Shown here one piece after another: positions 8,543 through 58,377 of a stretch of 63,255 bases of DNA (position 1 is its first letter; each line of letters starts with the position of its first letter). The DNA is taken from positions 1 through 63,255 of the forward strand of contig JAPKZQ010000017.1 of NCBI GenBank assembly GCA_026393675.1, in the 5' to 3' direction. The position numbers and the translations under genes were made by a program. Below the pieces are notes generated by a model. The model did not search any database. It was not told where the DNA came from and saw nothing but the letters and a program-made list of their open reading frames with translations. The stretch comes from Acidobacteriota bacterium. GTDB lineage: Bacteria > Acidobacteriota > Vicinamibacteria > Vicinamibacterales > JAKQTR01.

Positions 8543-8818
8543 GCGGATCATGCCTCACCAGCAGTGCGTGCGGTGCGTCCGGCGGTTGCCCGCGCGACGA
8601 TCGAGCGTACCTCCGGCGAGGCGGCACGTGCGCACGCGGATCACGCGCATGCGTTGAACACAACGATGTCCGTGTCCTGGTTGAACGAGCAGGTCTCAAG
8701 CAACGGCGGCGCCCGCCCGGGGCGGGGTTCTGGGGCGACGGTGGGCACGTGCAGATGGCGCAGAATGCGCTCGATCACCGAGGCCTCTTCGATCAGCGCG
8801 ATCAGCCGGAAACGCCCG

Positions 8819-8909
8819 CCATCCCTCGACCTTGCTCGGGATGGTCCTGAGCAGAGTCGCCGTTCGACCAGGCTCACGGCGACCCTGAGGTTCTCGAAGG
8901 GTCGAAGGG
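8819..8909 (-). repeat. CCCTTCGAC...GAGGG element, 88 bp plus 3-bp duplication, inside the IS91 gene
   Basis: On the coding strand the transposase codons for CPRCG|GRF are split after TGTGG by an insert beginning CCCTTCGACCC and ending AAGGTCGAGGGATGG, after which CGGGCG resumes. The ends CCCTTCGACC and GGTCGAGGGA are near-perfect inverted repeats. TGG occurs on both sides, as expected for a 3-bp target duplication. The 91-base net insertion shifts the frame. Its right third is closely similar to the element at 10088-10133. Confidence 0.75.
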
Positions 8910-9978
8910 CCACAGCGCGGATAGGCCAGGACGTCGATCCCGAACGTCCGGCGCATTAGGTCCGCCCAGAGCCGTGCCTCCTCGCGGGGCGGTCGCCTCT
9001 CGCGACCGCAGGGCGGATCGGGCGGGGGCTCGGTGGCTCTGGCCTCACTGGGGTCGGCGCGCTCTCTGGCTGTGGCCGCGTCGGTGGTGTTCCCGAAACC
9101 CACGACGAGCGACCGCCACGCCGCCCGTGGCCCCAATACGCCATGATACAAAATGAGGTTAATGCGGGGCCGCGGGATCAGGACGGCCAGCCGCTCCAGC
9201 AGTTCGAGGGGATCCAACAGGAGGTGCGTGGTGCCATCCGACCACGGGTGCCGGAGCTGCAGCACCACCTGCCCCTCGGCCGTCAACTGGAGCCGGTCCT
9301 GCGCGACGGTCGGCCGCAGCGCGGACCGGCAGAGCCGCTCGAGGCGGTCCGGCTGCTCGGCCGGGACCTTCACGCCGGCCTCGAGGTCGAACCCCTCCTG
9401 GCGCGCGGTTCGACGGGGCTCACCGCAGGCGTGACAGCGTTCGAGTCCGGGCACCTGGCCCTCGCGCACCTGGTCCTCAACTGGCACCGCCCCGCAGGGA
9501 CGCGCGCGCTTGCCTGCCCGGGGGCCGAGCGCGAACGTCCCCTGCACGGACGCCCCCGCCATACCGGCCAGCACCGGCGCGTCCTCTGCCCACTCGTCCG
9601 CCGCGCTCGCCCCCTCGTCGCCATCTCCGAGGCCCCGCCGTTCGAGCAGGCGCCTGACGCGCGGCACGATCGTCGCGAGCACATCCGCGACATCCGCCGC
9701 CGTGAGCAACGGGGCGGGACAGAAGCGCATGTCCGCGCCGTCTCTTGCAAACACCCCGTCCATCACAAGTGCGTGAGCATGAACATTCAAGTTCATCGCC
9801 CCGCCGAAGCGCTGGACGATCGCGACCGCACCGCCGCGGCCGTCACGACCCCGGCCAAGTGAGCCACGTGGCGCAGGAAACCGAGCACGGTCCGAACGGA
9901 AACACCCACGACGGCACGACACAGGTCGTGATCCCACGCCAGCCGGTACCGAAGGCTGTGCGGGAACGTCAAGACCCA

Positions 9979-10017
9979 CTCCACCCCAGCGCGGCTGCCG
10001 CGCTGGGGACCCCGGCA
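9979..10017 (-). repeat. 39-bp palindromic insert in the IS91 gene
   Basis: Contains the palindrome CCCCAGCGCGGC / GCCGCGCTGGGG (9984-10008), which would form an 11-12 bp hairpin. Relative to the remembered IS91 consensus (VPVRQWVLTFPH), it adds 13 codons in frame between VPVRQ and WVLTFP. The insertion call rests on that consensus. Confidence 0.55.
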
Positions 10018-10087
10018 CTGTCGCACCGGCACCGCCGGGAACACGTGGTCTACCAGGTGCGCGGCGCGTTCCGCCATCCGGCGCCCG

Positions 10088-10133
10088 CCGTCCCTCGGCC
10101 TTGCTCGGGACGGCCCTGAGCCATGTCGAAGGG
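10088..10133 (-). repeat. CCCTTCGAC...GAGGG element, 43 bp plus 3-bp duplication, inside the IS91 gene
   Basis: On the coding strand CASCG|GRRMAE is split after TGCGG by an insert starting CCCTTCGACATGGCTCAGG and ending AAGGCCGAGGGACGG, then CGGGCG resumes. CGG flanks both sides. It is the short form of the element at 8819-8909 and entered the same local target sequence, GCTGYGG^CGGGCG, in the same gene. The net 46 bases cause a frameshift. Confidence 0.75.
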
Positions 10134-10261
10134 CCGCAGCTCGCGCAGACTGCCCTCCCTTTACACGAAAACGGGACGAGCCGATCCAGCCCACAGTCAT
10201 CACAGCGAAAGCGCGCAAAGCCGCCCGCCAGGCACCCGCAGCGCAGCAACTCGCGAAACTC

Positions 10262-10316
10262 CCGCCTCCGCCAAGGCTTCGGCGTGGCACGCCGTAGCGC
10301 TTCGCGCGAAGGCGGC
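10262..10316 (-). repeat. CCGCC...GGCGG element, 55 bp, inside the IS91 gene
   Basis: Splits FVEQ|EFRELL of the transposase on the coding strand. It begins GCCGCCTTCGCGCGAAGCGC and ends GCCTTGGCGGAGGCGG. The same ends occur at 58328-58377, so this is a dispersed element unlike the CCCTTCGAC type. The length of 55 shifts the frame by one. Confidence 0.7.
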
Positions 10317-10749
10317 CTGCTCGACGAACCGGGGCAGCCCTTCCCCGTCGCGCAGACCGGCGGCCTGCGCGCGGAAGGTTTCGAAGTGATCGCGGACCAC
10401 CTGGTACACGACGCCCTGCGACGGCATCCGCGGCTCATAGGTCGGCGAGGGTTGGGACACGCCTCCGTGTACGGCGAATCGCGTGCCACATCCCACACGC
10501 GCCGCAGACGCGGCGCCGGTTGGATCCGGCTAGAACAGACGAAGCCTCGAAACGTATTGTCTGGCAGGCACTTGACGCCGGTCAGCACACTCGCGACGTG
10601 ACGATCTCTTCCTCACAAGCCTGAACAGTGCAATTCGGCAGGTGGCCGTTTCTGCACACAAGCGGGCAAGCGAACGTGGCAGATCTTGCTACACCATGAC
10701 CGGCAGGCTGCGCTGTGCGGAGTCCGCTGGCCCGGGCCCTCTGTTCATC

Positions 10750-11423: not shown

Positions 11424-11567
11424 GCCTTCGCCCTGAGCGTCGTCGAAGGGCTTTGGCGGACAAGCGGGGTCGGGCTTCGGACGGACCTGGTGGCGGGTGA
11501 ATGCCTGGGATCGCCGGGCTCTAGCCCGGCATCCGTCCTGGCCACGCTGGAGCGTGGCGATCCCGGG
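11424..11567. repeat. Repeat cluster: CCGCC...GGCGG-like unit and a REPIN (11504-11567)
   Basis: 11424-11462 is a CCGCCTTCG...TTTGGCGGA palindromic unit. 11504-11567 is a REPIN, two oppositely oriented hairpins: CCTGGGATCGCCGGGCTCTA on the left and CCACGCTGGAGCGTGGCGAT then CCCGGG on the right. The GGGATCGCC tag outside each hairpin is the same as at 18511-18576, 32640-32808 and 62012-62038. Fills the gap before the Hsp20 gene. Confidence 0.8.
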
Positions 11568-19251: not shown

Positions 19252-19384
19252 GGGCCGGGCTGTCCGCCTCCGCGCGTAGCGCTACGGCGAGACCTCGACG
19301 AAGCTCAACGAGCGAAGTCGGGGAGCCCGTCCTTCGGCGTTGCTCAGGACGCCCCGAGCACGGTCGAGGGGCGGCGATCCCAGG
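19252..19384. repeat. 133-bp dispersed repeat, copy A
   Basis: Matches the reverse complement of 32640-32772 at all but one of 133 positions by direct comparison. Contains GTAGCGCTAC and the CCTTCGGCG...GGTCGAGGGG unit related to the CCCTTCGAC elements, and ends GGCGATCCCAGG, the REPIN tag. It lies between ruvX and the lipoprotein gene, where no ORF is credible. A short heptamer run follows at 19399-19424. Confidence 0.9.
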
Positions 19385-28976: not shown

Positions 28977-29169
28977 GACTTGAACTTGGGTGCCCTGCTT
29001 TGTGCGTGATGGTCGGAGGCTCGTTTGAGCCAACGTTTCACACAAGGAGCTGCGATGCCGAGCGGTGTGCATGCCTCTGCGAGAGGAAGCCTGAAGCCCG
29101 GCTCTCATAGCGGTTCCACCTGCTAATGGCAGGTTCATCGACCTCTCCACACGGCAAAGCGGGGCCTTT
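28977..29169 (+). ncRNA. ssrS: 6S RNA (candidate)
   Basis: The terminal stem GCCCTGCTTTG (28992-29002) pairs with CAAAGCGGGGC (29155-29165), giving a rod of about 174 bases followed by CTTTTA. The interior shows features I associate with 6S RNA: GAGCCAACGTTTCACACAAGG on the 5' side, a GCATGC-containing centre, GAGAGGAAGCCTGAA, and CCTGCTAATGGCAGG as a small 3' hairpin. Location downstream of zapA and upstream of rny, its own promoter and length all fit. 6S RNA mimics an open promoter and sequesters sigma-70 RNA polymerase in stationary phase. No covariance search was possible. Confidence 0.75.
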
Positions 29170-32639: not shown

Positions 32640-32808
32640 CCTGGGATCGCCGCCCCTCGACCGTGCTCGGGGCGTCCTGAGCAACGCCGAAGGACGGGCT
32701 CCCCGACTTCGCTCGTTGAGCTTCGTCGAGGTCTCGCCGTAGCGCTACGCGCGGAGGCGGATAGCCCGGCCCAAGAAAGAGCCACGCTGGAGCGTGGCGA
32801 TCCCAGGG
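32640..32808. repeat. 133-bp dispersed repeat, copy B, plus REP hairpin
   Basis: 32640-32772 is the inverted counterpart of 19252-19384 with one difference. A REP hairpin, GCCACGCTGGAGCGTGGC then GATCCCAGGG (32781-32808), closes the unit, so the whole stretch is bounded by inverted CCTGGGATCGCC tags. It fills the gap between the plus-strand thiL operon and the tail of the minus-strand cell-shape operon. Confidence 0.88.
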
Positions 32809-57831: not shown

Positions 57832-58087
57832 TTCGCTCCGCGTCCCCGCTCACGCAAGCCGGCAAAACGTGCCCTGTTCGAGTCCGCCGCACGTGACGTG
57901 GCGATTCGCTCCGCGTCCCCGCTCACACAAGCCGGCAAAACGTGCCCTGTTCGAGTCCGCCGCACGTGACGTGGCGATTCGCTCCGCGTCCCCGCTCACG
58001 CAAGCCGGCAAAACGTGCCCTGTTCGAGTCCGCCGCACGTGACGTGGCGATTCGCTCCGCGTCCCCGCTCACGCAAGCCGGCAAAAC
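57832..58087. repeat. 73-bp tandem array, 3.5 units
   Basis: Units start at 57832, 57905, 57978 and 58051, the last partial (37 bases). The unit begins TTCGCTCCGCGTCCCCGCTC and ends CACGTGACGTGGCGA. Copies differ at one or two positions (ACGCAAG versus ACACAAG). A near-copy of the first 40 bases also occurs inverted at 48689-48720. It lies just after the RsbU-like gene, with no spacer sequence between units, so it is not CRISPR. Confidence 0.9.
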
Positions 58088-58171: not shown

Positions 58172-58377
58172 CGTTTTGCAGACTGCCGCCCTTCGACTTC
58201 GCTCAGGACTTCGCTGTCGGCTTGGTTCGAGGGGCCGCTTCGCGAATCGTCCCGTCACCTGTGCGCCGCAGGGGCGCAAGGAGCAGGGATTGGAGGCTGG
58301 GTCTTTCGCACTGGAGGCCGGGTCTTCCGCCTTCGCGTAGAGCTTCGGCGGACCGCCGTAGCCTTGGCGGAGGCGGT
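58172..58377. repeat. Dispersed repeats: module B and CCGCC...GGCGG unit
   Basis: 58172-58239 is module B, inverted at 48548-48615, which contains a CCCTTCGAC...TTCGAGGGG element flanked by CCG on both sides (58186-58237). 58328-58377 is a CCGCC...GGCGG unit (CCGCCTTCGCGTAGAGCTTC to GCCTTGGCGGAGGCGG) like the one inside the IS91 gene. With the tandem array they fill 57776-58493, 718 bases in which I find no gene. Confidence 0.82.

Follow-up and report, generated by a model that had tools for sequence, protein, structure and literature searches.

Small mobile two-hairpin elements with an inverted copy of the flanking target between their hairpins

How very small palindromic repeats spread in bacteria is described as an open question in the introduction of PMC8266576, and the 63,255-nt stretch of Acidobacteriota DNA analyzed here (the window) raises it in a concrete form. 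An IS91-type transposase ORF on its minus strand (8696–10588; PF04986, Y2_Tnp, E 1.8e-20; PF14319, Zn_Tnp_IS91, E 8.8e-10) is interrupted by two short palindromic inserts, and this ORF is the only Y2_Tnp match in the source genome, a draft of 3.25 Mb in 46 contigs. What are these inserts, and how did they enter the gene? The original prediction held that inserts of 43 and 88 bp split the transposase at GCTGYGG^CGGGCG between CGG/CGG and TGG/TGG, as members of a mobile palindromic family that duplicates 3 bp of its target.

Both inserts are borne out by their coordinates and by homologues without them. Read along the minus strand, the sequence is GCTG CGG [43 bp] CGG CGGGCG at site 1 and GCTG TGG [88 bp] TGG CGGGCG at site 2. 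Element 1 (10091–10133, 43 bp, minus strand) consists of hairpin 1 (10114–10133), an inner CCG (10111–10113), and hairpin 2 (10091–10110). Its left target copy CGG (10134–10136) is part of the transposase gene, as seen from the sequence and the homologous empty sites, and its right CGG (10088–10090) is the duplicated triplet. Element 2 (8822–8909, 88 bp, same strand) lies between a left TGG at 8910–8912 and a right TGG at 8819–8821. The peptides flanking each insert were sought in 29 fetched homologous loci, the window's own excluded. At site 1, both peptides were found in 17 of the 29 homologues, and all 17 lack element 1 and have a gap of 12 nt, compared to 58 nt in the window (12 + 43 + 3), an excess of 46 = 43 + 3. 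At site 2, where both peptides were found in 21 of the 29, 19 homologues have a gap of 6 nt and the other two have gaps of 7 and 43 nt, compared to 97 nt in the window (6 + 88 + 3), an excess of 91 = 88 + 3. The insertion points thus hold against intact IS91 homologues, each insert adding its own length plus 3 bp. At these sites, the left copy of the target word (X) was already present in the target, and the insertion exceeds the element by one X.

The IS91 gene has been hit elsewhere too. The 43-nt gap at site 2 belongs to locus L254 (genome G053), which carries a different palindrome of 37 extra bases near the local motif at which the 88-bp insert of the window sits; unrelated palindromes thus strike this spot as well. 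Genome G033 has a further copy of the gene with a related, larger 88-bp compound of its own at site 1 (gap 103), flanked by CGG on both sides. Several two-hairpin elements also occupy differing positions in IS91-type genes at the G033 loci L061 and L084–L087, which suggests that the IS91 copies are frequent targets in this genome.

Two features of the inserts were overlooked in the original prediction, namely an inner copy of the target and the nested makeup of the 88-bp insert. The latter is a 43-bp outer element, with hairpin 2 at 8822–8841 and an inner CCA at 8842–8844, whose first hairpin is broken by a 42-bp element plus 3 bp. The nested element (8860–8901, minus strand) has hairpin 1 at 8883–8901, an inner TCG at 8880–8882, hairpin 2 at 8860–8879, and a CGA duplication of its own at 8902–8904 and 8857–8859, one of the two CGA copies belonging to the host hairpin. 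It has close relatives at two places in G033 and a looser relative in G037. The three insertion events of the window all follow one layout, X-hairpin1-X'-hairpin2-X, in which the spacer between the hairpins repeats the duplicated target as its reverse complement (CGG/CCG/CGG, TGG/CCA/TGG, and CGA/TCG/CGA). The G033 compound has CGG/CCG/CGG where the window has TGG/CCA/TGG; this difference does not prove a rewriting of the inner triplet upon movement of one element, since separate entries of the nest into different host elements may also account for it. A third G033 compound (L281, on G033:C366) is a hybrid whose left target copy differs from the right one and whose flanks resemble two different parts of the IS91 gene; it looks like the product of a deletion between two elements.

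The source genome holds four further copies, each within another member of the repeat and each with an inner word that is the reverse complement of its flanks: L034 and L046 (both GCT/AGC/GCT), L038 (CGA/TCG/CGA), and L051 (= L026), the left copy of which is changed by one base. L034 sits in the GCT of a repeat unit that is uninterrupted in 19 other copies. In the window itself, a two-hairpin element with X = CG (19330–19371, plus strand; left 19328–19329, inner 19350–19351, right 19372–19373) lies within a larger repeat, a second copy of which carries the same element at 32653–32694 on the minus strand; the flanks are identical there and on contig C12 (L030). A lone family hairpin at 11430–11451 (minus strand) has neither a second hairpin nor matching flanks. 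Among 25 single hairpins viewed, several are doubles with altered partners, and no consistent duplication around the 25 was seen by eye. The locus originally proposed as a third copy flanked by CCG/CCG (58186–58237) is not an independent insertion. Comparison of 19 copies in loci fetched from the source genome places 58189–58234 (plus strand) in a dispersed repeat whose conserved part extends to both sides. The upstream triplets of these copies are ACG (12), CCG (6), and GCG (1), the downstream ones CCG (17), TCG (1), and ACG (1). Since this sequence is part of a dispersed repeat with triplets agreeing in only 5 of 19 copies, it has no bearing on target duplication. A 73-bp tandem array of 3.5 copies (57832–58087) stands just before it. 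An exact search of the window for a form of the originally proposed sequence pattern gave no match, and Rfam found only a 6S RNA gene (28989–29169) and two tRNAs in the window.

Does the relation between spacer and target hold beyond this genome? The first census pattern fixed both hairpins and left spacer and flanks free, so the rule was not built in. It matched 56 places in 24 of 149 genomes of the window's order, compared to none for a reversed control pattern in the genomes listed. All 56 places were fetched, giving 55 distinct rows and 36 flank clusters. When X was taken together with the outermost hairpin base, agreement with the spacer was found for the right flank in 29 of the 36 clusters, for the left flank in 31, and for the two together in 28; shuffled flanks gave this joint agreement in 4.5 clusters on average and 11 at most (2000 shuffles). 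For X alone, all three copies are equal in 30 of the 36 clusters. The family can be written in the general form X-[S4 TCGAC NNN GCTC S4']-X'-[S4 GAGC NNN GTCGA S4']-X, where S4 is a 4-bp clamp, X the target, and X' its reverse complement. Its constant part is the TCGAC NNN GCTC core, and the clamps vary yet remain paired (CCCT, CCCC, TCCC, TGGT, TCCT, CACT, and others). Counting in this form required at least 6 of 8 clamp pairs, which kept 46 of 49 Omnitrophota clusters (three dropped) and 51 of 56 others (five dropped), the latter comprising every locus not listed as Omnitrophota (mostly loci of the order, plus viral contigs, a single locus from Nitrospirae, and a few more). All three copies of X are equal in 24 of the 46 Omnitrophota clusters (shuffles: mean 0.48, maximum 4) and in 37 of the other 51 (mean 6.9, maximum 13). 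Altogether, the 97 clusters comprise 61 with three equal copies and 36 without full equality, of which 19 have three different copies and 17 a single odd one. From genome to genome, spacer and flanks vary together, and we regard the structural rule, that the spacer is an inverted copy of the flanking target, as well supported and very probably correct.

The same searches outline the distribution of the family. A core pattern matches in 31 of 285 Omnitrophota genomes. Outside the order, one of 267 other genomes in the phylum sample matches the core-pair pattern, as a pattern match alone. Among named genomes, the strict form occurs in 60 stretches: 50 titled Acidobacteria, Acidobacteriota, or Vicinamibacterales, seven titled Omnitrophota or Omnitrophica, one titled Nitrospirae, and two from one MAG titled Cyanobacteria. 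The latter two (L117 and L140) match at positions identical to those in G026, a genome of the window's order, and their title is probably wrong in the records. Plasmids gave one weak partial match. Viral contigs gave none with the strict pattern and five with a loose one, which were scored only within the general-form count. Nesting recurs at the CGA, TCGA, or GCT of sibling hairpins (L038, L046, L051/L026, L059, L072, L076, and L174), and the host unit of L076 is uninterrupted in L053 and L082. The family consists of mobile, non-coding two-hairpin elements of about 40 nt, which have entered the IS91 gene and numerous further sites in certain bacteria of soil and groundwater. The predicted mobility with target duplication is supported by the empty homologous sites, the empty paralogous sites, and the census of many genomes. 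The fixed duplication length of 3 bp is not general, as X measures 2–4 nt in clean cases.

These target words share a simple composition. X is usually one or more pyrimidines followed by one or more purines: its first base is a pyrimidine and its last a purine (4-nt words having to conform in both halves) in 22 of 24 clean Omnitrophota cases and 35 of 37 others, 57 of 61 in total, as raw counts not set against genome background. The preference for G-rich targets that had been proposed is therefore not general. X is 4 nt long in all 24 clean Omnitrophota cases, and 2 nt in 25, 3 nt in nine, 4 nt in two, and 1 nt in one of the others. Both length and sequence vary within single genomes, as in the window's genome (GCT, CGA, CGG, TGG), G033 (TGG, TG, CG), and G156 (TCGA, CTCA/TGAG). 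In many cases X is itself palindromic (CG, TCGA, TTAA), and inverted and direct copies are then indistinguishable. The inner copy is direct rather than inverted in four Omnitrophota clusters (L292, L307, L308, and L323), where the inner word would be flipped if the two inverted hairpins underwent an exchange. At the three variable loop bases, G-N-A is favored on the GAGC strand (Omnitrophota, 55 of 92; elsewhere, 30 of 102). In single-stranded DNA, loops of the C-GNA-G type are very stable. DNA energy models give single hairpins that are not stable (about −1 kcal/mol), and of four full-length strands folded, the best structure of three pairs hairpin 1 with hairpin 2. A role for GNA-loop stability is only an idea at present, because the modeled energies do not support stable single hairpins.

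Which enzyme might move such elements? The original prediction had cited movement in trans as established for REP/MITE elements. We examined the flanks of 32 Y1_Tnp loci (two of G000 and 30 of the 72 matches in genomes of the order) and found no RAYT gene flanked by the repeat and no enrichment in the flanks: the repeat core has seven matches in 98 kb near these loci, or 0.71 per 10 kb, compared to a background of 0.89. Of the 24 genomes of the order that bear elements, seven gave no Y1_Tnp match; four of these seven are less than 90% complete, and drafts may miss genes. In Omnitrophota, Y1_Tnp is present in 29 of 31 genomes with elements compared to 203 of 254 without (p 0.085, read off lists). 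Presence therefore yields no firm association with RAYT, and REP-type movement in trans by a known enzyme finds no support in the loci and genomes covered. In locus L001 (G000:C30), a Y1 transposase gene is flanked by another palindromic repeat of the GGGATCGCC...GGCGATCCC type, and the two are perhaps a REP system of their own.

The reading that we prefer over an inherited guide, at close to an even chance, is that the inner copy is made from the target at insertion, for instance by fold-back synthesis on two hairpin-capped ends. Insertion would leave a staggered break with short overhangs X; one hairpin would be joined to each 3' end and fold back, and the hairpin's own 3' end would copy the overhang to give X'. 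The two ends, now bearing X' and X, would pair with each other and be filled in, producing X-h1-X'-h2-X in one step. Such a one-step fold-back would explain both the inverted-pair units and the equality of the three copies. The likeliest kind of enzyme for cutting and hairpin attachment would be a structure-specific single-strand nuclease or a transposase acting at the lagging strand. More tentatively, this may amount to a new mode of insertion, in which hairpins cap a short staggered break, copy its overhang, and join through it, so that every insertion writes the inverted target into the middle of the element. No insertion in progress is present among the copies seen.

The main rival, which we hold to be possible although doubtful, is an inherited guide as in IS200/IS605: a carried X' would pair with the cleavage sites, and the element would leave and enter single-stranded DNA after a matching X, with the right X brought in by the element and no duplication made. 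The window gaps equal element plus 3 nt, but sequence alone cannot tell a carried right copy from a duplication. The X'-hairpin-X topology corresponds to an IS200/IS605 right end, and according to PMC8266576, guides 5' of the palindromes choose cleavage sites by pairing there, while E. coli TnpA-REP cuts at CT; CG, CA/TG, and CT all occur as X in the present family. The nested 42-bp element has also kept its inner TCG in the three places with close copies. In contrast, X varies in length and sequence inside one genome, and Y1_Tnp matches are missing from the seven genomes of the order noted above and from two of 31 in Omnitrophota. A guide that tolerates imperfect targets predicts an excess of target-side errors, whereas late correction of the spacer predicts an excess of inner errors. 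Elements were oriented before odd copies were counted. In the 17 one-copy deviations, the odd copy is the left in six, the right in five, unoriented in two, and the inner in four; among single-base deviations, the left in four, the right in one, unoriented in one, and the inner in two. The single-base cases thus lean slightly to the guide, the near-equal left and right totals point away from it, and the oriented count does not speak clearly against it. Per position, there are 13 changes in the inner copy compared to 28 and 35 in the unoriented flanks, counts for the flanks being inflated by shifted alignments. The way in which the copies have decayed does not fix the order of events, and the numbers are too small to exclude a guide, although they speak against late spacer correction. 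Four of the 97 clusters (L292, L303, L309, and L085) have equal flanks and a different inner word, which suits a duplication and would not be allowed by a carried copy.

Late correction presumes a conventional insertion with a short target duplication, after which the spacer is brought into agreement with the flanks by template switching at the hairpins during replication, as in quasipalindrome correction. Template switching is known to homogenize imperfect inverted repeats; uncorrected copies with equal flanks and another inner word would however be expected to be common, and their restriction to the four clusters named makes this route improbable. We consider a replication-only origin more improbable again. 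Iterated fold-back template switching without a transposase would produce a tiny inverted triplication (DUP-INV-DUP), and small inverted triplications in yeast and cancer, which have the same layout, are explained in PMC13334657 by 3' flaps folding back before they rejoin the template. Here, a 12-base core and paired clamps common to two phyla indicate hairpins that come from a donor rather than being generated from the target. That there is no mobility at all, with long hairpin stems kept by compensatory change and the flank matches as mere stem extensions, is scarcely credible: the pairing of each X with the inner copy is indeed what an extended stem would show, but the same inner bases pair with both flanks, which two separate hairpins would not need, and homologues lacking the whole insert at both sites refute this explanation for the window sites.

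Several known systems resemble the family in part. REPINs or REP doublets and BIMEs (PMC3116915, PMC3733652, PMC2817692) are likewise small non-coding palindromes in inverted pairs, dispersed between and inside genes and thought to move in trans. Inverted doublets of palindromes, a REP/REPIN trait, are present in the family here, but their unpaired GTAG or CGTC tag is absent, the bases beside the hairpins being the variable X, with neither tag among the clean X words. The family also differs from REPINs and BIMEs in that no repeat-flanked RAYT was found, the spacer goes with the target, and a target copy is added. By layout, the nearest enzyme family is TnpA of IS200/IS605 and REP systems: in IS200/IS605 ends and TnpA-REP (PMC8266576, PMC6006769), the hairpin has a short sequence before it, and this sequence pairs with the cleavage site on the far side. 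The IS200/IS605 family does not generate larger target duplications, according to PMC2817692, whereas here X stands twice around the insert and the pairing sequence changes from copy to copy with the target. MITEs are expected to have terminal inverted repeats and a target duplication of family-specific length; here, the 12-base cores are inverted and a target copy is added, but X measures 2–4 nt in clean cases. The small dispersed repeats (SDR) that Elhai described from Nostoc in 2008 are reportedly mobile hairpins of 21–27 nt that are often nested in one another, a likeness in general form; to our knowledge, no inverted inner target copy has been described for them. Small inverted triplications share the direct-inverted-direct order and a fold-back model with the elements studied here, but those of PMC13334657 comprise about 150 bp of local sequence and no mobile insert, compared to 2–4 bp with two conserved hairpins between. 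A search of largely open literature on small dispersed repeats, REP/RAYT, nested palindromes with target duplication, Rickettsia palindromes, and quasipalindrome switching led to REP/REPIN work, and no inner inverted target copy was found there. Variants of the core sequence led to no paper.

The inserts in the IS91 gene thus belong to a real mobile two-hairpin family, the target signature of which the original prediction had caught in part. Because intact copies record their target three times, the mechanism of insertion becomes readable from sequence and testable. Should insertion itself write the inner copy, the transposition pathway would be unlike those of IS200/IS605, DDE transposons, and REPIN models, and the element would be a natural recorder of the sites it has entered; if the inner copy is an inherited guide, the family would represent a very small element with sites selected through pairing of 2–4 bases.
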